Source: Nocardioides sp. BP30 (GTDB lineage: Bacteria; Actinomycetota; Actinomycetes; Propionibacteriales; Nocardioidaceae). Taken from it: 64,000 bases of DNA. The translations under genes and the position numbers were made by a program. Under the pieces are notes generated by a model, which saw only the letters and a program-made list of their open reading frames with translations, was not told where the DNA came from and ran no database searches. Below, one piece after another: positions 44,938-57,434 of this stretch (the first letter of the stretch is position 1; each line of letters opens with the position of its first letter). Where the stretch lies: positions 3,782,001-3,846,000 of the forward strand of contig NZ_CP123620.1 of NCBI RefSeq assembly GCF_029873215.1, written 5' to 3'.

Positions 44938-45687
44938 CTACCTGCGCCGCCCGACCACGAAGATGCGCCGGAACGGCATCACCACCACGCCGTCACGTGC
45001 GGGGTAGGCGGCCCGCAGGCGCACCTTCACCTCCTCGACGAACCGCTCCCGCAGGTCCTCGGGCAGCGCCTGCAGGATCGGTCGCAGGCCCGTGCCGCTG
45101 ACCCAGTCGAAGACGGCGTCCTCCCCGGCCAGCACGTGCAGGTACGTCGTCTCCCAGGCGTCGACCTCGAAGTCGTCGCGCAGCACGGCGAGGTAGGTGG
45201 CGGCATCGTGGGAGCCGGGCAGCTCGACCGCGGCGGTGTGCTCGACGTACTCGGTCGAGGCTGCCAGCTCGATCGGGATCGTGTGCGAGGGTTCGGCGAA
45301 GTTCGCCGGGACCTGGAAGGCGACCCACTCACCCGCCAGCGCGGCGAGGGCGGGCAGCAGCGCGAGGTGATCGGGCACCCACTGCAGCATCGCGTTCGAG
45401 ATCAGTACGTCGGCCGGCTCGAGCCAGTCACGCACGTCGGCCTGGATCCACCTCAGCTCGGGGTGGTCGGACCGAGCTCGCGCGACCATCTCCGCGGAGC
45501 TGTCCACCCCGATCACGTCGGCACCCGGCCAGCGTTGCGCAAGCAGCCGGGTCATGTTGCCCGGGCCGCAACCGAGGTCGACGACCCGCGCGGGTGACAC
45601 CGCTCCGATCCTGGCGACCAGATCGACGAACGGTCGGCCGCGCTCGTCGGCGTAGGTCAGGTAGTGCTGCGGATCCCAGCTCGGCAT
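44938..45687 (-). CDS. tam: Trans-aconitate 2-methyltransferase
   Basis: SAM-dependent methyltransferase that methylates trans-aconitate, an inhibitor of aconitase. The 249-residue protein starts WDPQHYLTYADERGRPF, has motif I VVDLGCGPGNMTRLL near residue 36, acidic VIGVDSSAEM, and SNAMLQWVPDH near 98, all typical of Tam. TTGACA and GATGGT with a 17-bp spacer stand 6 nt before the ATG. A TCTTGATGTCAAGA dyad covers the -35 box, so expression is probably repressed by a MarR-type regulator. Confidence 0.9.
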   Translation of the reverse strand: MPSWDPQHYLTYADERGRPFVDLVARIGAVSPARVVDLGCGPGNMTRLLAQRWPGADVIGVDSSAEMVARARSDHPELRWIQADVRDWLEPADVLISNAMLQWVPDHLALLPALAALAGEWVAFQVPANFAEPSHTIPIELAASTEYVEHTAAVELPGSHDAATYLAVLRDDFEVDAWETTYLHVLAGEDAVFDWVSGTGLRPILQALPEDLRERFVEEVKVRLRAAYPARDGVVVMPFRRIFVVGRRR

Positions 45688-45726: not shown

Positions 45727-46566
45727 TTAACCGAACCGGCCGTGCACGTAGTCGGACGTGCGCTGGTCGTGGGGTGCCTCGAACATCGCCTCGGTCTCCC
45801 CGTGCTCGATGATCACCCCGGGCTGGCCCTGCTCGGCCAGGAAGAACGCGCACCGGTCCGAGACACGACGGGCCTGCTGCATGTTGTGGGTGACGATCAC
45901 GATCGTCACCTCGTGCCCGATCTCCTTGATCGTCTCCTCGACCACCCGGGTCGAGGTCGGGTCCAGTGCGGAGCAGGGCTCGTCCATCAGCAGCACCTGG
46001 GGCCGCACCGCCAGCGACCGGGCGATGCACAGCCGCTGCTGCTGCCCACCCGACAGTGCGCCGCCGGGCTGGTCGAGCCGGTCCTTGACCTCGTTCCACA
46101 GGCCGGCACGACGCAGCGACTCCTCGACGAGTTGCTCGCGGGCCGCCCGCTGCACCCTCGCGCCGGTCAGCGAGAGCCCCGCGAGCACGTTCTCCCGGAT
46201 CGACATCGCCGGGAACGGGTTCGGCTTCTGGAAGACCATCCCGATCGCCTTGCGAGCGTCGATGACCTGGCGCTGCCGGTCGTAGATGTCCTCGCCGTCG
46301 AGCCGGACCTCGCCGGCCAGCGACGCGGTCGGGATCAGCTCGTGCATCCGGTTGAGGATCCGCAGGAAGGTCGACTTCCCGCACCCCGAGGGGCCGATCA
46401 GGGCCGTCACCTGCCCCGCCGGCATCTCCAGCGTCACCCGGTCGAGGACCTTGCGACGCCCGAACCACGCCGATACGTTCTCGGCACTCAGTGCCGAGGT
46501 GCGCGCCGCCCGCGTCGCCGTCGGTACGGCGACGGTGGCGGCCTGGTCGTCCAGGACAGCGGTCAT
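45727..46566 (-). CDS. pstB: Phosphate ABC transporter ATP-binding protein PstB
   Basis: Energises high-affinity phosphate import. The 279-residue ATPase has Walker A GPSGCGKST near residue 60, the Q-loop region FQKPNPFPAMSIRENV typical of PstB, signature LSGGQQQR near 172, Walker B VLLMDEPCSALD and VTHNMQQA. An Ala/Thr-rich N-terminal tail of about 25 residues is extra. It lies about 8.5 kb downstream of pstA, separated by five other genes of the locus. A long hairpin stands between it and the upstream gene, but GGAG 5 nt before the ATG gives good translation. Confidence 0.96.
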   Translation of the reverse strand: MTAVLDDQAATVAVPTATRAARTSALSAENVSAWFGRRKVLDRVTLEMPAGQVTALIGPSGCGKSTFLRILNRMHELIPTASLAGEVRLDGEDIYDRQRQVIDARKAIGMVFQKPNPFPAMSIRENVLAGLSLTGARVQRAAREQLVEESLRRAGLWNEVKDRLDQPGGALSGGQQQRLCIARSLAVRPQVLLMDEPCSALDPTSTRVVEETIKEIGHEVTIVIVTHNMQQARRVSDRCAFFLAEQGQPGVIIEHGETEAMFEAPHDQRTSDYVHGRFG

Positions 46567-46589
46567 GTCGTCTCCGGTGCTGGGAGGGT

Positions 46590-46628
46590 GGCCGGCTGGT
46601 GGCGCGGGTGCTGCGCCGCCAGCCGGCC
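46590..46628 (-). terminator. Terminator between the Ig-like protein gene and pstB
   Basis: GGCCGGCTGGTGGCGC pairs with GCGCCGCCAGCCGGCC over 16 positions with one T/G mismatch and a 7-nt loop. pstB transcription must read through it or start at an unseen promoter downstream. Confidence 0.7.
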
Positions 46629-46642
46629 GGTCTGGGACACCG

Positions 46643-47599
46643 TCACTTGGAGGTGACGGTGACGGTCTTGCTGCTCGCGGCCGCGACGGTGGCCGAGCCG
46701 GCGTAGGTGGCCTTGATCTTGTGCTTGCCCTTCTTCAGCTTCTTCAGCTTGATCGAAGCCTTGCCCCCGCTGAGCGTCGCGCTGGCGAGCTTCTTCTTGC
46801 CGTCGTACACGGTCACCGCGCCGGTCACCGCCTTGCTGGCCTTCACCGTGACGGTGAGTGGCACCTTCTTGGTGTGCTTGACCTTCTTGGCGACCTTGAG
46901 GGTCACCGTCGCGGCGACCTTCTTGACCACGGGCGGGGCGGTGGTGGCCGACTTCGTCGGGGTCGGCGAACCGGTGGTCGGCGTGCCGCTCGGCGAGTCG
47001 GGGGCGGTCGTCGACGGCCCGCTGCTGGGCGAGCCGGTCACGCCGGTGCTGCTGGTGCTCCACGTGCCGTGGGCGCTGTCGACGTAGATGTCGATGGCGT
47101 CATAGGCGGCCGAGACCGCCGCACCGGGGCTGATGGTCTTGAGCCGGAGCTCGACCAGGCCGTCGGCCGCGGGCTGGTAAGCGTTGAGGAACTGCTCGAG
47201 CGTGACACTCGAGCCGAGCGGCACCGTCAGGCTGCTCGTGTCGACGGCCTGGGTCAGCTGGGCGCCGGTCCAGGTGCCCTCCGCGGTCGGCTGGTAGGCG
47301 CTCAGGTCCGCGGTGGTCGTCGGGCCGCCGTACGCGTAGGCGGAGTGGACGTAGCCGTAGACGACCGACTTCGATCCGCTCAGCGCCGCGTCGGACTCGC
47401 CGACGGCGGTGATCGCGTCGCTCAGGCTGCCCGAGGTGACGGCGTTGCCGCCGACCTTGAGCGTGATCGCGCCGACATTGTTGGTGTCCGGCGCGGCGGT
47501 GGTGTCGCCCGAGGCCGAGACCGCGACGATCCCGGCACCGACGAGCGCGGCAGCGCCGACGGCGGTGACCGCCGCGACACGAGTGGCCCGCTTGTTCAT
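46643..47599 (-). CDS. Secreted protein of unknown function with Ig-like C-terminal domain (pst locus)
   Basis: A 318-residue exported protein. Signal/anchor helix at about 8-28, then a domain (about 40-175) homologous to the next upstream product: shared features are GAITL near its start, YQP, WTGAQL, TLEQFLNAYQ and the AYDAIDIYVDSAHGTW ending. A Ser/Thr/Pro-rich linker (about 175-225) leads to a Lys-rich Ig-like module with VTVYDGKKKLASATL and KGKHKIKATYAGS, similar to the tail of the secreted amidase at 32.3 kb. No LPXTG signal. GAGAGG precedes the ATG. Function unknown. Confidence 0.8.
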   Translation of the reverse strand: MNKRATRVAAVTAVGAAALVGAGIVAVSASGDTTAAPDTNNVGAITLKVGGNAVTSGSLSDAITAVGESDAALSGSKSVVYGYVHSAYAYGGPTTTADLSAYQPTAEGTWTGAQLTQAVDTSSLTVPLGSSVTLEQFLNAYQPAADGLVELRLKTISPGAAVSAAYDAIDIYVDSAHGTWSTSSTGVTGSPSSGPSTTAPDSPSGTPTTGSPTPTKSATTAPPVVKKVAATVTLKVAKKVKHTKKVPLTVTVKASKAVTGAVTVYDGKKKLASATLSGGKASIKLKKLKKGKHKIKATYAGSATVAAASSKTVTVTSK

Positions 47600-47641
47600 G
47601 GTTGTCCTCTCAAACTTCAAGTCGTTGGATCGCTCGGGCGA

Positions 47642-48250
47642 TCAGGAGCTCGGGCAAGCGGCGGTGCCGGCACCCACGGCGGTCCAGGTGGTGCCGTCGA
47701 TGTGCAGGTCGAGCGTCGCGTACGACGCGGTCTGCGGCGCCTGCCCGGCAGCGCCGAGGATCAGCCGCAGCTGGATCCAGCCGCCGTCCTGCGCCGGGTA
47801 GGCGTTGACGAACTGTGCGAGGGTCGTGTCCGCCTTGACCAGCACGGCCGCGGGCGCCTTCGGGTCGGTCACCTGAGATGCCGGGCCCAGCTGAAGACCG
47901 CTCCAGCTCTCGGGGCCGACACCCTGTCGCGGCTGGTAGGCGAACACGGTGGCGGTGCCGTTGCTGGCATAGCCACCGGCGGCCGCCTGGCCACCGACCG
48001 CGACGGTCGCGAAGGGCTGGTCGACGGTGCTGCCCGACGTGATCGGACGGCCGCCGCGACACAGCGTGATGGCACCCGCCGAGGCCGGGTCCGTGTACGG
48101 CGCCGACCCCACCTCGCGGTGGTGACGGATCGCTACCCAGACCGCGGCGACGACGGCGAGGAGGACGATGACGACGCCGGCCGCGATCGTTCCGCGGCGG
48201 TCTCGCCACGACGCCTGCTGGCGCTCGCGGTGCTGTTGGGTCATGGTCAT
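47642..48250 (-). CDS. Single-pass membrane protein, paralogue of the adjacent Ig-like protein
   Basis: A 202-residue protein with a charged cytoplasmic N-tail, one transmembrane helix (about 22-42) and an extracytoplasmic domain. That domain aligns with residues 40-175 of the downstream product: GAITL, TSGS, YQP, WSGLQL, TLAQFVNAYP, LRLILGAAGQ and YATLDLHIDGTTWT. Two cysteines (one early, one in the last five residues) could form a disulfide. Start at 48250, where GAGAGGAGG lies 6 nt upstream; a GTG at 48286 opens the longer frame. The two genes are 42 nt apart. No known family recognised. Confidence 0.78.
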   Translation of the reverse strand: MTMTQQHRERQQASWRDRRGTIAAGVVIVLLAVVAAVWVAIRHHREVGSAPYTDPASAGAITLCRGGRPITSGSTVDQPFATVAVGGQAAAGGYASNGTATVFAYQPRQGVGPESWSGLQLGPASQVTDPKAPAAVLVKADTTLAQFVNAYPAQDGGWIQLRLILGAAGQAPQTASYATLDLHIDGTTWTAVGAGTAACPSS

Positions 48251-48297
48251 CGTGTCCTCCTCTCCGTCGATGTCCTCGTCGCTCACCCTGGGAAGGG

Positions 48298-49548
48298 TCA
48301 GCCCTTGGTGCCCTCACCCGGCTGGCTCACGCCGACGGCGTTGGCCGTCACACCCGGGTAGTACGGGGTCAGACCGAGGCTGGAGATCAGCTGCTGACCG
48401 GCCGCGCTGACGATCCACGGCGCGGGGGCGCCCGAGGCGTCGTCCGGGTCGTAGGCGGGGTTGTAGAACAGCGTCCTGACCCAGTTCAGCGTGCTGCCCG
48501 GCTGCCAGGCCTTGTTCGAGTCGATAGCCGACTCGCGGAAGATCACGTAGAACGGCAGGTCCGCGACGTACGCGCTGGCGCTGACGCCGTTCGAGCCCGG
48601 CACCTGCAGGGTGATGCCCGAGGCGCTGAGCGGCGTCGTGGTCTTACCGTCGGAGCCGTTCGCCACGCTGCCGGTGTAGGACGCGCTGGACGGGTCCGGG
48701 AAGTAGTTCTGCTGAAGCAGCTTGTAGCGGCTCTGCGGGAACGGCACGATCGCGTCAGGGTTACCCGCCACGGTGCTCGGGTCGTTCTGCTGGACGGCCT
48801 TCACACTCGTCTTCCAGGTGCAGGCGGTGTTGCCGTTGCCAGCCTGGAGGACGGCCTGGAACTGCTTCAGCACGCCGGCGCTGTCCTGCGGGCGCTCGGC
48901 CACGATCGTCGAGGTGCCGGTGCCGCCGACCTGGTCCCAGGTGGTGTAGTCGTTGGCTGCGTTCGAGCAGTAGATGCCGGCGAGCTGTGCCGGCGTGAGG
49001 CCGACGGCGGGCGCGTTGGTCGTCGCCGCGGTCGCGATGTACTGCTTGTCGTCGGCGAACTGGATCGTGTAGAGCTTCGAGCCGAGGTTGCTGGTGGCGG
49101 TGGTCTGGTCCGCCGCCTTTGGCAGGTTGGGGCTGCGGGCGAAGTCGATCGCACCCGCGGTGTCCTTCTCCAGTGCCGTGATGCCGGCGCCACCGCCGTT
49201 CGGCCGCAGTACGGGCGAGGTGCCCGCACGCAGCACGACCGAGGGGTTCAGGGCGACGGACGTGCCCAGGCTCGGGTCGGTGAACGCGTTGCGGCCGTTG
49301 GCGTCGGCCGAGGCGTCGAAGTTGAAGAGCCGGTTGACGTTGCCCGCCGAGTTGAAGCCGGGGAGGCCGCTGGGCGATCCGTCGGCGAGGAAGTCGACGG
49401 AGTTCTGGATCACGTCGGATCCGACCCCGACGACGTCCTGCGCCTGCGGGGCGATGTCGGCGCTCGCCGACCCCTGCCCGAAGGAGAGGGCGCCAGCAGC
49501 CACCAGCCCGAGGAGGGAGGCGCCGACCGCCACATGCCGCTTCGACAT
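48298..49548 (-). CDS. Secreted PstS-like substrate-binding protein
   Basis: A 416-residue exported protein without a lipobox. Signal peptide ends near GSASADI (residue 31). The mature part begins QDVVGVGSDVIQNSVDFLAD, a PstS-like opening, and has a TPAQLAGIYC segment near 190 where PstS proteins have their hinge-region LTxxqlakIF motif, and PQDSAGVLKQFQAVL where phosphate binders have the S-x-T/A-phosphate loop. It lacks a membrane anchor, so it may be free in the envelope. It begins a separate transcription unit with a leader that shares an element with pstC. Ligand unproven; phosphate or a phosphorylated compound is likely from context. Confidence 0.82.
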   Translation of the reverse strand: MSKRHVAVGASLLGLVAAGALSFGQGSASADIAPQAQDVVGVGSDVIQNSVDFLADGSPSGLPGFNSAGNVNRLFNFDASADANGRNAFTDPSLGTSVALNPSVVLRAGTSPVLRPNGGGAGITALEKDTAGAIDFARSPNLPKAADQTTATSNLGSKLYTIQFADDKQYIATAATTNAPAVGLTPAQLAGIYCSNAANDYTTWDQVGGTGTSTIVAERPQDSAGVLKQFQAVLQAGNGNTACTWKTSVKAVQQNDPSTVAGNPDAIVPFPQSRYKLLQQNYFPDPSSASYTGSVANGSDGKTTTPLSASGITLQVPGSNGVSASAYVADLPFYVIFRESAIDSNKAWQPGSTLNWVRTLFYNPAYDPDDASGAPAPWIVSAAGQQLISSLGLTPYYPGVTANAVGVSQPGEGTKG

Positions 49549-49643
49549 GATGTGCCTTTCTGAAGACCTACGACCGGCCCCGGGGTCGAGGACGGTGGAA
49601 CTGAGATGGCACCGAGCCACGGCCGAACATTAACTGATTTCAG

Positions 49644-49660
49644 ATCGAGTTAGGCGACTT
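49644..49660. promoter_or_regulatory. Shared pst-locus element, copy 2
   Basis: ATCGAGTTAGGCGACTT (plus strand) matches 15 of 17 positions with ATCGAGATTGGCGACTT at 57418 upstream of pstC. Both are about 100 bp from the respective start codons and in the same orientation. The area is unusually A/T-rich. It is a candidate binding site for the phosphate-responsive regulator. Confidence 0.55.
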
Positions 49661-49696
49661 TGTCCATTTGCGTGACTTTCTTTTCGCGAGTCCGCT

Positions 49697-50599
49697 TCAG
49701 AGCAGGTTCGGCAGCAGCCGCGTGGCCACCATCGAGGCCAGCCACAGACTCGCCAGGAGCACCGGCAGACCCGCGATCCAGGCAGCCAGCCGCGACCAGC
49801 GGTAGCGCGCCCAGGTGATCGCGACGAGCCCGCCCACCAGCAGCTCGAGCGCCAGCGCCAGGAGCGCGAGCGTGCCCGCGCTGGCGTCGCGCGCCATGGC
49901 GCTCCCGCCGGGGTCCGTGGCGGACACGGCGCTGGCCGGCTGCGGGGCACCGACCAGGGAGGCGTCGGCGTAGACGGTCTCGGAGTGCGCCAGCGGGGCC
50001 GAGCCGGCCGCGGAGGCCAGCGTCAGCCGGCTGGCGCCGTCCGCGAGCGGTGCCAGCAGGTCACCGTTGCGACGGACGTCGTCGACGCGGTAGTGGAAGA
50101 CTCCCTGCGCGGTGGTGACCGTGATCGCGGCGCCCGGCTTCAGCGAGGCCAGGTGCCGGAACGGGCCGCCGTAGGAGACCGCACGGCCGAGCAGCACGCT
50201 GTTGCCGACCTGACCGGGCAGCACGGTGCCCAACTGGTGGCCCGGACCGTCCTGGAGCTGCGCCGGCCGGGTGCCCTCCACCACCACCAGGTGGTGGAGG
50301 CCGAGGGCCGGCGCGTCGAGCAGCGCGACGGGCGCACCGGCCTCGATCGGGGCAACGGTGGGCGCCGTACCCTCCGCCAGCTCCTGCCGCAGCTGTCCGT
50401 AGAGCTGCTGCTGGGCGTGGCCCTGGCTGAAGCCGCTCAGCACGTAGACGTAGAGGAGCAGCCAGCCGAGCAGCCCGGCGAGCAGCAGGATCGCCTGCCC
50501 CACGCCGATCCGCAGCCGGCGGGTGTCCGCACGCTCCAGGGGGGTGGCGTCGACGGCCCCCTCCCGGACGGTGGTCCGCGCCGGTGTGGTCGTGCTCAT
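49697..50599 (-). CDS. Sortase-fold membrane protein lacking catalytic His and Cys
   Basis: A 300-residue protein: one N-terminal helix (about 33-55), a sortase-like beta-barrel (about 85-235) and two C-terminal helices (about 243-265 and 273-297). The domain keeps LPGQVGNSVLLG, SYGGPFRHLASLKPGAAITV and a FHYRVDDV strand. The usual AGHR is LGRA here, and the usual TLxTC is TLASA, so His and Cys are absent; the Arg also appears lost. It cannot be a normal transpeptidase and may be a scaffold. Coupled by an ATGA overlap to the 935-residue PstS-like gene. Confidence 0.82.
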   Translation of the reverse strand: MSTTTPARTTVREGAVDATPLERADTRRLRIGVGQAILLLAGLLGWLLLYVYVLSGFSQGHAQQQLYGQLRQELAEGTAPTVAPIEAGAPVALLDAPALGLHHLVVVEGTRPAQLQDGPGHQLGTVLPGQVGNSVLLGRAVSYGGPFRHLASLKPGAAITVTTAQGVFHYRVDDVRRNGDLLAPLADGASRLTLASAAGSAPLAHSETVYADASLVGAPQPASAVSATDPGGSAMARDASAGTLALLALALELLVGGLVAITWARYRWSRLAAWIAGLPVLLASLWLASMVATRLLPNLL

Positions 50600-53403
50600 C
50601 CATGCCTCCGGGCCAGTCGCGCCGAGGTCCGGCTCAGCCACGGACCGGACCACCGACCGATGACGCGACTGCCGGCGGCGATCTCCTCGCACCAGCGCAG
50701 TGCCAGGCCGGCGACGAGGAGGCACAGCCCGGCAATCAAGGCGAACGGCAGGCCGAAGCGACCGATCCGGGAGTACGCGCCGACGGTCTTGATCGAGTCG
50801 GCGGTGGTGGTCACCGGGGAGGTGGCGGGCGCCGGGGAGACGCTCGCCGACGGGACCGGCGGGGCGGCCACCGCGGCGGTGCTCGTCGTCGCGGTGGCGG
50901 CGGCGGCGCTGGGCGTCGCGCTCGCGTTGGCCGAGGCGGTCGCCGACGGCTTCGCCGTCTTCGGTACGGCGGGGCACGCTCCGCTCAGCGACGGCACCAC
51001 GCCCGTCTGCGCGCGCACCTGAACGGCGACGCAACGCGTGTAGGCGGCCTCCGCGCCCAGGCCGTTAGCCGAGGTCATCGGCAGCGCTCCCGGCGCCAGC
51101 TGGCCGTTGGCGGTGCCGGCACTCTGCCCCGACCCGGCCGCGAAGTCGAGGAGCTGCGCGACCCGCGCGGCGTCGGCGGAGCCGAGCCCCTTCGTCGGGA
51201 CGTCGGCGTACACCGGCATCAGCCCGGGGTAGGCGCCGGTCTGGGAGTCGAGCTCGTCGTAGTCCACCGTCCAGGCTCCGGCGTCGGTGTCGGCGCTGAG
51301 CAGCTTGACGGCCGTCTTCATGCCGGCGGTGTCGGGTGAGGCGAAGGTCTTGCCCGAGGCGTCGGTGAACGTCGTCTCCGGACCGATGTCGGAGCTCGTC
51401 TCGAGCGCCGCGGCGCGCAACCCGTACCTGCTCACGGCGGTGAGCGGAACGACGCCGATGACGAATCGGTGGCCGACGGGCTGCTGCCCCTCGGTCTTGG
51501 GCACCAACTGGCTCGGGTCGTTCGCGTCGGTGATCGTCGGGCACACCGTCTGACTGTTCGAGATGGCGAACTCGAGGTCCTCCTCGATCGTGGAGACCTG
51601 TGAGAGCGGGTGCGCGATCTGCGCCAGGTAGGGCACGTCCTTCATGCAGGCGTTGCTCCCGGTGCCGTCCAGCTCGAAGTCGTCGAGCAGCGGCCACGAG
51701 CTCACCGGCAGCGTGAGGTGCGGACTCGAGGGGTTCTGAGAGGCCGGCAGGTCCAGCTGGTACGCCGGGTTGACCTTCATTCCCCAGGGGTCCCGCTCGC
51801 CGTCGAGCCAGTGCTTGGCGTCGGAGTCGGAGAGGATGTAGCTGCTCAGCGCGGTCAGCATGTCGGAGTCGTTCGACAGCGAGATGAGAGCGGCAGCGGC
51901 GTTCGCGACGCCAGGGATGCTGGTGTCGACGTCGGGGTTCAGGGCGTGAAACTCGGGGTCGGCGAAGATCGTGCGCGGATTGCCCGCCAGCGCCGGATAC
52001 GCCTTGCGTCCCTGCAGGTCACCGTTGTAGGACTCGGTCAGCAGCTTGGCGAGCAGCCGCGCGTTGAGCTTGAGGTCGGTCACCGGCTGCCCGTCGGCAC
52101 CGTCGATGTTGTAGGCGATCGCGAACCCCGTGACCGCGACCGGCGCCTGGGCGATCGGTGCGGTGAAGCCCCCGTCGGGGGGATCGGAGCTCAGGCCGAT
52201 CTTGATGCTCTGCTGGTCGACTAGCGAGCGCGCCTGGATGTCGGTGGCCTGCACGTGCAGGAACGGCTGGTACCCCTTGGTCGTGCAGAAGGCCGGCTGC
52301 CACTGCGCAGCGATGTCGGTCATCAGGATCGAGCCGTACGCGAGCAGCGGCGCCGTGCTGTTCACCAGGGAGCAGGTGCTCCCCGAGACCGCGAAGTTGA
52401 GGGGCACGACGATCCGGTTGTCCCAGTTGGAGGCCGACCACCACAGCCGTCCTGACGTGGCGAGGTTGAAGTTCGCACCGGAGCCGTCCGCCGACTGCCC
52501 GGGCTGGTATACGTCCGGCTTCTCGCAGGAGGTGGCGTAGCGCGCCTGCTGGGCGGCGGTCGGGATGATCGGGTCGCCGGCGTCGACCTGGGTGAAGTTC
52601 GGGTCGCAGTCGATGCCGGTGACCGGGATCGCCACCAGGGAGCAGGCCACCGAGGCCGAGCAGCCGAGGGTGGCGTTCTCGTCTGCGGTCCACACCGCGA
52701 ACTGCGCCGTACCCTTGCCATCGGTGCCGGTGATGCCGTAGGTCGTGTTGTCGGGGACACCCGTGGTCGGCTCGTCCGATCCCTCCGGAGCCAGGTCGTA
52801 GCAGCCGACACCACCCCCGTAGTAGGTCGTTCCGCTCGCCGCCACCAGCGGCACCCAGCGCTCGAAGCGCTGGGTGGCACACGTCGACGGGCGGTTCACC
52901 GTCGGCAGGTCCACCTGAGCCGCGCGGTCTGCCGACGCGGCGGCCCCGTCGGCGCGCCAGACCGGCGCACTCGTCACCGTGTTCGCGGTCTGGATCCGCT
53001 CCGCCGACGTCTGCGTCCAGCAGGTCTCGGGCTTGACGGTCGCCGCGGTGCCGCGGCACTCCATCAGGACCAGGGGGTATTCCTGCTCGGATCCGTCGTA
53101 CCCGTAGCTGGGATCGCTCACCACACCACCGGTCGGGTGGGCGCCGCTCCAGCTGACAGTGATCGGCTGGTTGCCGCGCAGGTTCTGGGTCGAGGAGACG
53201 GTGAGCTTCACGTCGTACCCGTCGGGGTTCGCGGGGTCGGCCGGCGTGGTGGTGCCGTCCGCGCCGTAGAAGACCCGGTTCACCGTCTTCGCATACGTCT
53301 GCGTGCCGGTGGCCTGGGCGCTCGGGGTGAGGGCGAAGCCGGTCAGCGCCGCGACGACGAGGAGAACACCGGCCACGACCAGCGCGGCCCAGCGGCGCCT
53401 CAT
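50596..53403 (-). CDS. Large PstS-like binding protein with C-terminal membrane anchor
   Basis: A 935-residue exported protein. Signal peptide (about 1-32); an N-terminal Cys-containing beta-rich domain (about 35-340); a second domain (about 360-800) with PstS-like features, for example APVAVTGFAIAYNIDG and LNARLLAKLLTESYNGD, the counterpart of the PstS hinge motif. A Ser/Ala/Pro-rich stalk (about 825-885) leads to a transmembrane helix (about 893-912) and a basic cytoplasmic tail. There is no lipobox or sorting signal. Overlaps pstS upstream and the pseudo-sortase downstream by 4 nt each. It probably works beside PstS at the cell surface; ligand not known. Confidence 0.82.
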   Translation of the reverse strand: MRRRWAALVVAGVLLVVAALTGFALTPSAQATGTQTYAKTVNRVFYGADGTTTPADPANPDGYDVKLTVSSTQNLRGNQPITVSWSGAHPTGGVVSDPSYGYDGSEQEYPLVLMECRGTAATVKPETCWTQTSAERIQTANTVTSAPVWRADGAAASADRAAQVDLPTVNRPSTCATQRFERWVPLVAASGTTYYGGGVGCYDLAPEGSDEPTTGVPDNTTYGITGTDGKGTAQFAVWTADENATLGCSASVACSLVAIPVTGIDCDPNFTQVDAGDPIIPTAAQQARYATSCEKPDVYQPGQSADGSGANFNLATSGRLWWSASNWDNRIVVPLNFAVSGSTCSLVNSTAPLLAYGSILMTDIAAQWQPAFCTTKGYQPFLHVQATDIQARSLVDQQSIKIGLSSDPPDGGFTAPIAQAPVAVTGFAIAYNIDGADGQPVTDLKLNARLLAKLLTESYNGDLQGRKAYPALAGNPRTIFADPEFHALNPDVDTSIPGVANAAAALISLSNDSDMLTALSSYILSDSDAKHWLDGERDPWGMKVNPAYQLDLPASQNPSSPHLTLPVSSWPLLDDFELDGTGSNACMKDVPYLAQIAHPLSQVSTIEEDLEFAISNSQTVCPTITDANDPSQLVPKTEGQQPVGHRFVIGVVPLTAVSRYGLRAAALETSSDIGPETTFTDASGKTFASPDTAGMKTAVKLLSADTDAGAWTVDYDELDSQTGAYPGLMPVYADVPTKGLGSADAARVAQLLDFAAGSGQSAGTANGQLAPGALPMTSANGLGAEAAYTRCVAVQVRAQTGVVPSLSGACPAVPKTAKPSATASANASATPSAAAATATTSTAAVAAPPVPSASVSPAPATSPVTTTADSIKTVGAYSRIGRFGLPFALIAGLCLLVAGLALRWCEEIAAGSRVIGRWSGPWLSRTSARLARRHG

Positions 53404-55070
53404 CGGGCACCCCGCAGCAGCCGGGTGAGGATCGGCGGCACGACCAGCCCCAGCACGAAGAGCAGGATGACGAGCACCGTCAGCGGCCGGGACGGACCGG
53501 CGTGGTCGTCGGCGGCCAGGGTCGTCGCCACCACGGTGCCCGTCGCCGCGGTGCCGCCGGCGGCGGTGCCGGTGCCCGCGGCGGAGGTGCCGCCCGCGGC
53601 GACGTTGCCTGCTGCCGGCCCGGCCGCGGCCCCCGACCCGGCCGCCGCGGCGGCACCCGTGCCCGTACCGGCGCCGGTGCCGGTGCCGGTGGTGGCGCCG
53701 GCCGCCTTGGTCGCGGTGCTCTGCGGCGCCTTCCCGTCCACGGGGTTGGCGTTCGCGGTGCCCTCGGTGCCGGTGCACGGTCCGGCCCCCTGCTTGTCGC
53801 AGGCCGCCGGCTGCGGGGCGATCTGGGCGAGGTAGTTCTCACTGGGATGCCCGGCGATGAACGTCGGGTTGTGGCAGGTCGAGACGTTGCGGTTGGTCAG
53901 CACGACGCCGCTGTCGGCGGCCTTGAGCTTGGCGATCTGGGTGAACCCCGCCTGCACCAGGTTGACCGGCAGCGAGGAGTAGCCGATCGGGCCGATCTCG
54001 GACTGGCCGGCGCAGATCGAGTAGTAGAGGAAGTCGCCGACGGTCTGCCGGGCGGCGGTGGTGTTGGTCTTCGTGTCCTTCGCCGAGGTCGGGATGATCG
54101 CGTAGACGTAGGACGAGAGCGGGTAGGTCCGCTTGTCGGCGTTGGTGTAGACGTCGTCCAGGTCCTGCGTCAGGTAGTCCGGGGAGGACGGGTTCATGTT
54201 GATCTGCGCCTTCGTCAGCGCGACCGCGACGTTGTACTGCGTCGGCAGCGTGTAGTACCCCGAGCTGTTGAGCAGCTTGGCCGACGGGTAGTTCTTGCCC
54301 AGCGGGTAGGAGTACTCCTCGATCGCGATCGCGCCGTTGGCACCGCTGCTGGTGAGGAAGTTCATCACGCCGTCCGAGCCGGAGAACGACTTCATCGCGC
54401 CGCTGCCGCCGCAGTTGGTCGGGAAGTACTCCGTGGCGACGTTCTTGCCACCGTTGCAGGCCCCCCACAGCGCGGGGAACTCCTTGGCGAGGTACCGGGT
54501 GAACTCGTAGGTCACGCCGGCCCCCTCGGAGTGCACCACCGGAACGATCGGGATCGAGGGCAGGGCGTGGCCGTTGTTGTCCGCCGTGATCGAGGGATCG
54601 TCCCAGTTGGTGATCTTGCCGGTGAAGATCTTGGCCACGGTCAGGCCCGAGAGCCGCAGGTTGCGCACCAGCTGACCCGCGACCTGCACGTGGTACGGCA
54701 GCGCGGTGCCGCCGGCCGCGATCGGAAGGTAGGCGTAGGAGCGGCCGAGCGAGGAGTCCTGCTGACCGGTCGAGGGATCGGTGCCCTGATAGCCGATGTC
54801 CGAGACGCCGAAGTCTGTCAGGTTGTGCGCGAAGTCGGAGCGGCCCAGCGCGGCACCGTTCGGGTTGAAGTCGACGTGCAGGCCGCCGTTGGTGGCGACG
54901 TCGGCCTGCCACTGCGCGATCGCGTTGGCCGCCCAGCTCGAGCCCGAGCCCTTGATCGGCGAGTGGCTCACCGGGGCGTCGGCCGCGCCGGCGGCGGAGG
55001 AGAACCCGATCACCGCGATGGCGAAGGCCGATGCGAGCGCACCGGCGAGGGCAAGAAGTCGGCGAGTCAT
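53400..55070 (-). CDS. pstS: Phosphate-binding protein PstS, membrane-anchored form
   Basis: High-affinity phosphate receptor. Signal peptide ends near SSAAGA (about residue 29), with no lipobox. The binding domain (about 35-400) has IKGSGSSWAANAIAQW, the phosphate-loop ISDIGYQG-like segment VSDIGYQG, GGTALPYHV, and LSGLTVAKIFTGKITNWDDP. Unlike the usual 370-residue lipoprotein it continues as a Gly/Ala/Thr-rich stalk (about 440-515) and a C-terminal transmembrane helix (about 525-547) with an Arg-rich end. So it is tethered at its C-terminus. Start overlaps the pstA stop (ATGA). Confidence 0.93.
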   Translation of the reverse strand: MTRRLLALAGALASAFAIAVIGFSSAAGAADAPVSHSPIKGSGSSWAANAIAQWQADVATNGGLHVDFNPNGAALGRSDFAHNLTDFGVSDIGYQGTDPSTGQQDSSLGRSYAYLPIAAGGTALPYHVQVAGQLVRNLRLSGLTVAKIFTGKITNWDDPSITADNNGHALPSIPIVPVVHSEGAGVTYEFTRYLAKEFPALWGACNGGKNVATEYFPTNCGGSGAMKSFSGSDGVMNFLTSSGANGAIAIEEYSYPLGKNYPSAKLLNSSGYYTLPTQYNVAVALTKAQINMNPSSPDYLTQDLDDVYTNADKRTYPLSSYVYAIIPTSAKDTKTNTTAARQTVGDFLYYSICAGQSEIGPIGYSSLPVNLVQAGFTQIAKLKAADSGVVLTNRNVSTCHNPTFIAGHPSENYLAQIAPQPAACDKQGAGPCTGTEGTANANPVDGKAPQSTATKAAGATTGTGTGAGTGTGAAAAAGSGAAAGPAAGNVAAGGTSAAGTGTAAGGTAATGTVVATTLAADDHAGPSRPLTVLVILLFVLGLVVPPILTRLLRGAR

Positions 55071-56212
55071 CGGGAAGGCCTTTGCTTGGCGACGAAACGG
55101 GCGAGCAGGAACAGCATCAGAACCAGGAGGAGCAGCACGGTGGCGGCGGCGTACCCGCGCGTCTCGAACGTGGGCTCGCCGGACTTGACAGCGGTGAAGA
55201 CGTAGAGCGGCAGCGACGTCATCGGGTTGTGCAGCGGGTTGGTGTTGAGGAAGTTCGTCGCCCCCGAGGTGAGCAGCAGCGGCGAGGTCTCCCCCACCAT
55301 CCGGGCGATGCCGAGGATCAGCGCGGTGGCCAGCCCCGGCCGCGCGGTCGGCAGCACCACCCGCCACACCGTCTGCCAGCGTCCGGCCCCCAGCGCGTAC
55401 GACGCCTCGCGCAGCCCGCCGGGGACCACCCGCAGGACCACGTCACTGGCCCGGGCCATGATCGGCAGCCCCATCACCGCGAGCGCGAGGCTGGCGGCCA
55501 GACCGGAGGGCTGCATGTGCAGCCGGATGATCAGCACCGAGTAGATGAACAGGCCGGCCACGATCGAGGGCAGCGCCGTCATCGCCTCCACCACGGTCCG
55601 TACGACGCGGGCACCACGGCCGCCGACCTCGGACATGTACACCGCCGTGGTCACCCCGAGCGGCAGCGCGATCGACACCGAGATCGCGACCTCGATCAGG
55701 GTGCCGACGATGGCGTGCAGGATGCCGCCGCGGTCGTAGGGATCGGTGGGCCGCACGCCCGCCATGTCATGGGTGTAGAAGTTCGGGTGCACCAGCACCG
55801 TCAGGCCCTTGAACACGGTCGTCAGGACCATGTCGGCCAGGGCCAGGCCCACGATCGCGGGCGCGGCGACGACGACGGTCGTCATCATCCGGTCGAGCAC
55901 CACCGGCCACGGCCGGGTCAGCGCGGTCAGGCCGGCGTAGAAGGCCATGAAGACGAGGTACGCCGAGACGACGAAGCCGATGGTGCCGCTGAACGGCAGC
56001 ACCTGGCCGTAGAGCACCCACGTGGTCGCCAGCGCGGCCAGCGCCGCACCCACCAGGGTCAGCACGTCGTCGCGGTGGCGCGACCCGGTCGGCCGCGGCG
56101 TCTCGCGGCGGACCTCGGGAAGGCGCTCCTCGGCGGTGGGCTGAGCGGACCGGCGGGCGGTCCCGTCGGCGGGTCCGTCCGGCGTAGCGGGCCGGGACTC
56201 CAGGGCGGTCAC
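55067..56212 (-). CDS. pstA: Phosphate ABC transporter permease PstA
   Basis: A 381-residue inner-membrane permease. After a 45-residue charged, Pro-rich tail come about eight transmembrane segments, more than the usual six, with the transport domain in the second half. The permease loop motif is EASYALGAGRWQTVWRVVLP near residue 285, followed by RMVGETSPLLLTSGA, which is diagnostic of PstA. The GTG at 56212 overlaps the pstC stop by 4 nt. Confidence 0.95.
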   Translation of the reverse strand: MTALESRPATPDGPADGTARRSAQPTAEERLPEVRRETPRPTGSRHRDDVLTLVGAALAALATTWVLYGQVLPFSGTIGFVVSAYLVFMAFYAGLTALTRPWPVVLDRMMTTVVVAAPAIVGLALADMVLTTVFKGLTVLVHPNFYTHDMAGVRPTDPYDRGGILHAIVGTLIEVAISVSIALPLGVTTAVYMSEVGGRGARVVRTVVEAMTALPSIVAGLFIYSVLIIRLHMQPSGLAASLALAVMGLPIMARASDVVLRVVPGGLREASYALGAGRWQTVWRVVLPTARPGLATALILGIARMVGETSPLLLTSGATNFLNTNPLHNPMTSLPLYVFTAVKSGEPTFETRGYAAATVLLLLVLMLFLLARFVAKQRPSR

Positions 56213-57300
56213 AGGTCGGTCCCCTGTCCGCTGCGGCTGCGCTTGACCACCTGGGCGGCGACGGTGTTGACCAGCAGCGTCATGCAGAACAGCACGAACC
56301 CGCAGGTCAGCAGGGCCGACAGCTGCGCGGGGGTCGCCTCCGCGTAGTTGGTGGCGATCAGCGCCGAGATCGTCGACGTACCGGACTCCAGGACGTTGAT
56401 CTTGACCTGGAACGCCTGGTTGATGATGAGGAGCACGCTGATCGTCTCGCCCAGCGCGCGGCCCAGCGCGAGCATGGTGCCGCCGATGACACCGCTGCGG
56501 CCGAACGGGATGACCACGGTGCGCACCATCGCCCATCGGGTGGCGCCCAGCGCGAGCGCCGCCTCCTTCTCGCCGGCAGGTGCCTCGCCGAAGACCTCTC
56601 GCATCACCGAGGTGGCCATCGGGAAGATCATCGCCGCCACCGCGATCGAGGCGATGAACGCGCTGCCGGCATAGGCGGCGTAGCCCGGCGACTGGTTCCA
56701 GATCGGGTAGTTCACGTCGGTGTGCACCTTGAAGATCGGGATCCACCCGAAGTACTTGCTCAGCCAGTGCGCGATCTGGGCCGCGTGCGGCTGGATGTAG
56801 AAGAGCACCCAGAGGCCGAAGACGATGCTGGGCACGGCGGCCATCAGATCGACCACCCGGACCAGCACCGGCCGCAGCCGGGCCGGCGCCCAGTCGGTGA
56901 TGAACAGCGCGGTGAAGAAGGCGAGCGGGAACGCGATCACCAGCGCGCACGCGGCGACCTCGATGGTGCCGACCAGCACCGCTCGGATCCCGATGATGTC
57001 CTGGCTCGGCAGCCAGCGTGACTCGGTGAAGAAGTGCCAGCCGTAGTGGCTCAGGGTCGGCTTGGCCTGCAACCCGAGGAAGATGCCGATGGAGCCGACG
57101 ATGACCAGGACCAGCAGGCCGACCGCCCGGACGCCCTCGAGGAAGACGCGGTCCTGCCGGGAGTAGCGGGTGACGATCCGCCGCGGCGTCGGCTCGGGGC
57201 CCTCATCGGGCCGATCGGTCCGCGGTCGCTGGGTCCCGGGCGGCGTCGGCGGGCCTGCCGCGGGCACCACCGCGAGAGCCTGGGTCGGCTCAGCTGCCAT
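56209..57300 (-). CDS. pstC: Phosphate ABC transporter permease PstC
   Basis: A 363-residue inner-membrane permease, first gene of the pst operon. Cytoplasmic Pro-rich tail, then six transmembrane helices. The coupling loop motif is EAALALGATRWAMVRTVVIP near residue 245, and GALGETISVLLIINQ-like sequence (LGRALGETISV) follows. The leader of about 130 bp carries a GGCAGGG/CCCTGCC hairpin at 57356-57378 and the shared 17-nt element at 57418. GAGAGAAGGA lies 5 nt before the ATG. Confidence 0.95.
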   Translation of the reverse strand: MAAEPTQALAVVPAAGPPTPPGTQRPRTDRPDEGPEPTPRRIVTRYSRQDRVFLEGVRAVGLLVLVIVGSIGIFLGLQAKPTLSHYGWHFFTESRWLPSQDIIGIRAVLVGTIEVAACALVIAFPLAFFTALFITDWAPARLRPVLVRVVDLMAAVPSIVFGLWVLFYIQPHAAQIAHWLSKYFGWIPIFKVHTDVNYPIWNQSPGYAAYAGSAFIASIAVAAMIFPMATSVMREVFGEAPAGEKEAALALGATRWAMVRTVVIPFGRSGVIGGTMLALGRALGETISVLLIINQAFQVKINVLESGTSTISALIATNYAEATPAQLSALLTCGFVLFCMTLLVNTVAAQVVKRSRSGQGTDL

Positions 57301-57417: not shown

Positions 57418-57434
57418 ATCGAGATTGGCGACTT
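57418..57434. promoter_or_regulatory. Shared pst-locus element, copy 1
   Basis: ATCGAGATTGGCGACTT on the plus strand, 118 bp upstream of the pstC start, inside an A/T-rich patch. It matches the element at 49644 at 15 of 17 positions. The Streptomyces PHO-box unit GTTCACC is not present here. Confidence 0.55.

Follow-up and report, generated by a model that had tools for sequence, protein, structure and literature searches.

An extended pst gene cluster of Nocardioides sp. BP30 with tethered binding proteins and a sortase homologue lacking catalytic residues, and its relatives across actinobacteria

A cluster of nine genes at positions 45,727-57,300 of a 64,000-nt window of the genome of the soil actinobacterium Nocardioides sp. 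BP30 (NZ_CP123620.1, 3,782,001-3,846,000; all coordinates given without a locus prefix are those of this window) combines the genes of a PstCAB-type importer with those of three PstS-like binding proteins, a sortase homologue devoid of catalytic residues (hereafter called pseudo-sortase) and two paralogous surface proteins. With little more than even confidence, we interpret it as a member of a second Pst lineage carrying an array of surface-anchored receptors, in which the ligand of the window's own clade is probably no longer free phosphate. Judged by homology, the transporter core is that of Pst, with two tested features of Pst systems, the phosphate-coordinating residues and the PhoP-type promoter box, missing from this copy, and the cluster may import something other than phosphate.

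Gene order and conservation of the extended cluster

All nine genes are read from the minus strand, in two units. The first contains pstC (56209..57300, 363 aa), pstA (55067..56212, 381 aa, with a GTG start), pstS (53400..55070, 556 aa), the gene of a 935-aa protein (50596..53403) and that of the pseudo-sortase (49697..50599, 300 aa), which are joined by four overlaps of 4 nt. The second starts 148 nt after the first and encodes proteins of 416 aa (48298..49548), 202 aa (47642..48250) and 318 aa (46643..47599), followed by pstB (45727..46566, 279 aa); phoU is not among the nine genes. This arrangement confirms what had been noticed in a sequence-only reading of the same DNA, and the proposal then made that the genes are produced together is supported. 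(A class I methyltransferase gene, 44938-45687, lies on the same strand 39 nt downstream of pstB.)

The combination is widely conserved. When the 935-aa protein was used to scan genome contigs, 63 loci were obtained, 61 of which contain pst genes; the contigs of the other two (L039 and L070), 7.6 and 4.0 kb long, break off immediately before the 935-type gene. The sortase-like gene is present in 55 of the 63 loci, and seven of the eight loci without it extend no more than 3.7 kb beyond the 935-aa match in the downstream direction; in L039 no sortase-like gene was found despite 5.1 kb of such sequence. The order pstC-pstA-pstS-935-[416 and accessory]-sortase-pstB recurs, with local changes, in Nocardioides, Pimelobacter, Aeromicrobium, Janibacter, Cellulomonas, Streptomyces, Actinoplanes, Phytomonospora, Actinokineospora, Leifsonia, Schumannella and Microbacterium, and the window belongs to this set, having pstC, pstA, pstS, the 935-aa and 416-aa families, the pseudo-sortase and pstB together. 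(Three metagenome-bin contigs labelled Melainabacteria or Bifidobacterium breve, namely L035, L039 and L070, also carry cluster genes; their labels look doubtful.)

A second test, overlapping in part with the first (genome G045 is apparently that of L010), searched the window pseudo-sortase against 60 genomes drawn across the class, 36 of which gave some match at E 1e-12. Eighteen full-length pseudo-sortases (at least 121 bits) were found in 12 genomes, three of them in BP30, and pst genes are present in the fetched stretch around 17 of the 18 (14 of 15 when BP30 is excluded). The remaining one, L118, sits at a contig edge, and its genome has a 935-type gene and an extended PstB on other contigs. 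None of the short loci (3.3-3.5 kb) that surround 18 ordinary sortases from this search showed a pst-level match, and two of them contain a general ABC ATPase. The conserved co-occurrence with pst genes that the sequence-only reading proposed to look for in Propionibacteriales has been found over a far broader range, and the contrary possibility that these genes are common without pst does not hold for the two families examined in this respect, the 935-aa and sortase-like proteins.

Window PstC and PstA both exceed the NCBIfam equivalog cut-offs for Pst (TIGR02138, 234.9 bits vs. 196.45; TIGR00974, 228.9 bits vs. 193.45), PstB lies 4 bits under its own (TIGR00972, 339.3 vs. 343.2) and PstS, which matches PF12849 (E 2.3e-27), misses the PstS equivalog cut-off (TIGR00975, 157.6 bits vs. 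205). The BP30 genome, a single contig of 4.28 Mb, contains four PstB-level genes. Window PstB is 71% and 68% identical to the PstB proteins of L072 and L073, both extended clusters, and 56% identical to that of L074, a separate ordinary pstSCAB. The other 11 pseudo-sortase genomes of the sample, counted at E 1e-75, all have at least one PstB that is 68-78% identical to window PstB and exactly one, of the ordinary type, at 52-58%. The extended system is therefore present in addition to an ordinary transporter, and by PstB identity the extended clusters form a PstCAB lineage separate from ordinary Pst.

Several features of the other pst loci may be added. The second extended cluster of BP30 (L072:2702-13129, in G000:C1:1222000-1241000) has GSG and SGS loops that are intact by eye; a real sortase gene lies some 2 kb upstream of the cluster, and the gene directly 3' of pstB was labelled by eye as a putative lytic transglycosylase. 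In the third (L073:1-10868, in G000:C1:614000-633500), a 935-type gene and the gene of an Ig-repeat protein precede pstC. Elsewhere, the ordinary PstB gene of a small low-G+C genome (G004:C169:1815-2606) contains two internal TAG codons.

Pseudo-sortase and surface proteins

The last gene of the first unit encodes a sortase domain (PF04203, E 1e-12) with Arg in the place of the catalytic His and Ala in that of the catalytic Cys; its hydropathy profile indicates one N-terminal membrane helix and two C-terminal hydrophobic stretches, the protein ending in LLPNLL. When 57 cluster-linked homologues were aligned with a genuine sortase, the column of the catalytic His contained R in 55 rows, K in one and H in one, whereas the Cys column contained A in 47, G in six and S in four, no Cys being found within eight columns. 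In the class-wide sample, the full-length homologues likewise have R or K at the first position and A or S at the second, whereas the ordinary sortases obtained in that search retain both His and Cys in 18 of 18 cases. The loss is thus old and has been maintained, and the family shows its own conserved features (GRxxxYGGPF, RLTLVTAxG and the C-terminal LLPNLL). Literature searches gave no paper on a sortase family without catalytic residues as a kind of pseudoenzyme, and we offer this conserved family as one for study.

The hydropathy profiles also indicate how the other exported proteins are tethered. PstS has an N-terminal signal, a flexible tail and a C-terminal anchor (hydrophobic segments at residues 3-30 and 524-555); the 935-aa protein likewise combines an N-terminal signal with a C-terminal helix. 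The 202-aa protein is anchored at its N-terminus, and in the 416- and 318-aa proteins a signal at the N-terminus is the sole such segment, with no anchor. Along its sequence, the 935-aa protein comprises an N-terminal beta region, a PstS fold at residues 348-799, a linker and the membrane anchor, while the 416-aa protein is PstS-like by profile. The 202- and 318-aa proteins are paralogues with one domain in common, to which the latter adds a C-terminal Ig-like domain (PF16640 Big_3_5, E 9e-16); the structure predicted for the former is a confident beta sandwich without specific match. The profile of the common domain matches the N-domain of a surface-protein family of the relatives with an hhalign score of 49.5, the top score among the controls (two reversed, eight from unrelated families and 30 column-shuffled) being 17.4; a plain HMM search did not find this link. 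The earlier inventory of three PstS-like proteins, a dead sortase and two paralogous surface proteins is therefore correct, and the idea of a surface apparatus around a PstCAB-type importer gains support.

The relatives carry additional surface proteins. Among 75 accessory proteins (the window 318-aa protein plus 74 of the 97 listed, out of 131 in 52 loci), Pfam recognizes Big_3_5 in 32, WxLIP in 14, PBP_like_2 in 12 and WxL in seven. LxxTG-type C-terminal signals, defined by a strict pattern, occur in 16 of the 52 loci, 14 of these 16 being from Streptomyces, and some clusters include LAxTG proteins. In Actinoplanes (L036), the genes that separate those of the binding proteins from the sortase gene include those of a WxL protein (PF13731), a WxL-interacting protein (PF06030) and an LPKTG-ended protein; the Leifsonia cluster L060 includes a WxL-interacting protein, and in L108 a protein that resembles this type by eye lies beside both 202- and 318-type proteins. 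None of the nine window proteins has a WxL or WxL-interacting match in Pfam, or an LPxTG-type end by eye.

Binding pockets and promoter signals

The pocket of PstS was examined at S38, D56, R135, S139 and T141, which we take to be the phosphate-coordinating residues in E. coli numbering and which were placed by alignment. The window protein shows the changes S38A, R135H, D137E, S139A and T141V, so that the five positions are occupied by A, D, H, A and V, with only D56 being kept. S38A, S139A and T141V or I are found in all six rows (five systems) of the clade that unites the window (WIN) with L009-L012 and with L111, identical to L010 (SH-aLRT 98 in a quick tree). Outside this clade, in 66 rows that do not include L074, S139 is conserved in 66 of 66, R135 in 62 of 66, S38 in 63 of 65 and T or S at position 141 in 62 of 66, while Glu replaces Asp56 in 59 of 66 rows of these extended clusters. 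Sister sequences show other pocket changes: R135H with D137E in L113 and L114, and S38D, D56S, R135Q and D137E in L107 and L108.

A matching alteration is present in the 416-aa protein of the window, in which the SGT loop has become AGV and the GSG loop GGG. In the former loop, all 42 family members outside the clade have SGT or SGS, but all six inside (WIN, L009-L012 and L014) have AGM or AGV; equally, the GS loop retains its Ser in 42 of 42 outside and has lost it in six of six inside. The 416-type proteins of L112-L114 retain GSG and SGT, and outside the clade 41 of the 42 rows have Pro in the place of PstS Arg135. Two receptors of one cluster have thus lost their phosphate-holding hydroxyls in the same clade. 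In the PstS fold of the 935-aa protein, PstS-type phosphate loops are not visible by eye in the profile alignment.

PhoP-type boxes were evaluated by a motif scan that counts matches, out of 14, to two GTTCACC units 11 bp apart. A score of 11 is reached by 34 of 59 pstC upstream regions in extended clusters vs. 26 of 294 that precede other genes of these loci, while no other spacing exceeds 10 of 59 and none of 59 other permuted motifs exceeds nine of 59. Counted by cluster, 34 of 55 outside the window clade have the box and, given that their PstS proteins also keep most phosphate residues, phosphate or a small phosphate compound is the probable ligand in many lineages. The window shows no such box, its best score being 9 before either unit, whereas 13 is found before the ordinary pst genes (L074) and before pstC of L072, which has a second box of 13 before its 416-type gene; L073 has none before pstC (score 9). 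None of the five clusters of the window clade attains 11 (WIN 9, L009 10, L010 9, L011 8, L012 9). L009, L011 and L014 possess tandem extended clusters, of window type first and with an ordinary pocket second, and the second clusters score 11, 11 and 12, respectively, the first ones of L009 and L011 having 10 and 8. In the class-wide sample, single cases of a box before the 416-type gene were seen in L109, L113, L114 and L116.

The upstream regions of the two window units have in common the element AAGTCGCCNANCTCGAT, present before unit 1 as AAGTCGCCAATCTCGAT (57418..57434, minus strand) and before unit 2 as AAGTCGCCTAACTCGAT (49644..49660, minus strand); control in the window clade may lie with this promoter element. 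Considering that both binding proteins have lost phosphate-holding hydroxyls and that no box is seen, the ligand of the window clade has probably changed to another phosphorus compound or another anion. The sequence-only reading had spoken of a phosphate-uptake locus: its PstCAB-type importer stands, but uptake of phosphate is less supported for this copy, given the ordinary boxed pst elsewhere in the genome, the absent box in the window and the lost phosphate side chains of PstS and the 416-aa protein.

Interpretation and relation to known systems

In the scheme that we propose, the tethered binding proteins would crowd binding sites beside PstCA, the surface proteins would extend into the wall and the dead sortase would hold the array together rather than cut, so that a scarce anion caught in the wall could be handed inward. 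In its most extended form, which we put forward only tentatively, the scheme would describe a general actinobacterial surface relay in which the dead sortase, as a non-cutting receptor of sorting signals or of tails close to the membrane, docks both the wall proteins and the three PstS-like receptors onto a PstCAB of their own, and in which one nocardioid clade has re-tooled the entire relay, with two receptors at once, to a ligand other than free phosphate.

Various observations weigh against this interpretation. The geometry of the array, like the part played in it by the dead sortase, is something that we infer, and ligand transfer from the 416-aa protein cannot be taken for granted, since a passage of PMC2605767 describes a fully secreted PstS of Streptomyces lividans as unable to feed uptake. 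One of the two clusters of genome G059 (L117) has no pstB of its own within its available stretch. Regarding promoters, the contrast weakens at a threshold of 12 (10 of 59 vs. 18 of 294), a box before the 416-type gene is rare (three of 41) and 21 of the 55 clusters outside the window clade also score under 11, so box-less clusters are not confined to that clade. The two loop changes, moreover, occur within one clade and hence count as a single historical coincidence. Lost hydroxyls are no proof of lost phosphate binding either, because SAR11 PstS, in the portion of PMC12421899 considered here, binds phosphate without the conserved Arg (having Pro instead), and organic phosphates weakly, while retaining Gly-Thr and Ser contacts with phosphate.

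Some of these data would also fit a back-up phosphate importer, namely an extra Pst copy with spare binding proteins that still takes phosphate and tolerates the loop changes. Such an explanation, which we regard as rather unlikely, agrees with the equivalog scores of PstC and PstA, with the phosphate residues mostly retained and the PhoP-type boxes found in many relatives, with the frequency of box-less clusters outside the clade and with the tolerance of Arg loss that the same portion of PMC12421899 reports for SAR11 PstS; it has difficulty in accounting for Arg135His in window PstS and for matching loops altered in two binding proteins of one clade. Less probable still is a complex devoted mainly to adhesion or wall organization, similar to Csc/WxL, in which the Pst part would sense or power and import little. 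The WxL, WxL-interacting and LAxTG proteins of some relatives, the Ig-like domains and the lack of visible phosphate loops in the 935-aa protein point in this direction, but a pure adhesion complex would not need the pst genes that accompany the 935-aa protein nearly everywhere, nor the S139 kept in all 66 PstS rows outside the clade. Finally, although no searched library links the accessory genes to phosphate uptake, a chance neighbourhood of an ordinary pst operon and unrelated envelope genes is extremely improbable and was rejected, given the recurrence across many families in both tests and the conservation of the 4-nt overlaps.

Pst importers, sortases and WxL complexes are each already known; a stable union of their parts found no description in the literature searched, which covered few subscription journals. 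Phosphorus is a scarce nutrient in many soils, and antibiotic production in Streptomyces is under phosphate control. If true, a surface-armed second Pst lineage in Nocardioides, Streptomyces, Actinoplanes, Leifsonia and others would alter how phosphorus scavenging is read from genomes, where the genes of such clusters can pass as plain pst and sortase. The window clade would moreover represent a natural experiment in ligand change, since a single importer there has two receptors with changes in corresponding loops.

Among known proteins, SAR11 PstS resembles 41 of the 42 outside-clade 416-aa-type proteins in having Pro for the phosphate-binding Arg, but, as far as the cited portion of PMC12421899 goes, it keeps the Gly-Thr/Ser contacts, whereas the window clade has lost the SGT loop. 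Class E sortases of actinobacteria share the sortase domain with the pseudo-sortase and provide its best NCBIfam model (73.6 bits), yet the latter remains below the cut-off of 160, has catalytic His and Cys replaced, possesses two extra C-terminal hydrophobic stretches and is accompanied by pst genes in nearly all the sampled loci. In the Isd haem relay of staphylococci, surface receptors hand a scarce nutrient to an ABC importer and a sortase gene lies in the cluster. The extended clusters are similar in the idea of surface receptors joined to an ABC importer and in the presence of a sortase gene; they differ in fold, ligand and phylum, the window sortase being dead and the relay a proposed one. 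WxL, WxL-interacting and LPxTG-type proteins make up the Csc/WxL surface complexes of lactobacilli and enterococci, and all three types occur in some relatives' clusters; however, the extended clusters are joined to an ABC importer, and in the window only the 202- and 318-aa beta-domain proteins take the place of the surface proteins. With the PstSCAB importer, finally, the window system shares homologues of PstC, PstA and PstB and receptors of the PstS fold, but its PstB belongs to a separate lineage present beside the ordinary one, its phosphate residues are lost in the window clade, phoU is missing from the nine genes, two of its three PstS-like proteins (PstS and the 935-aa protein) are membrane-anchored, and a dead sortase and surface proteins are added to the transporter.

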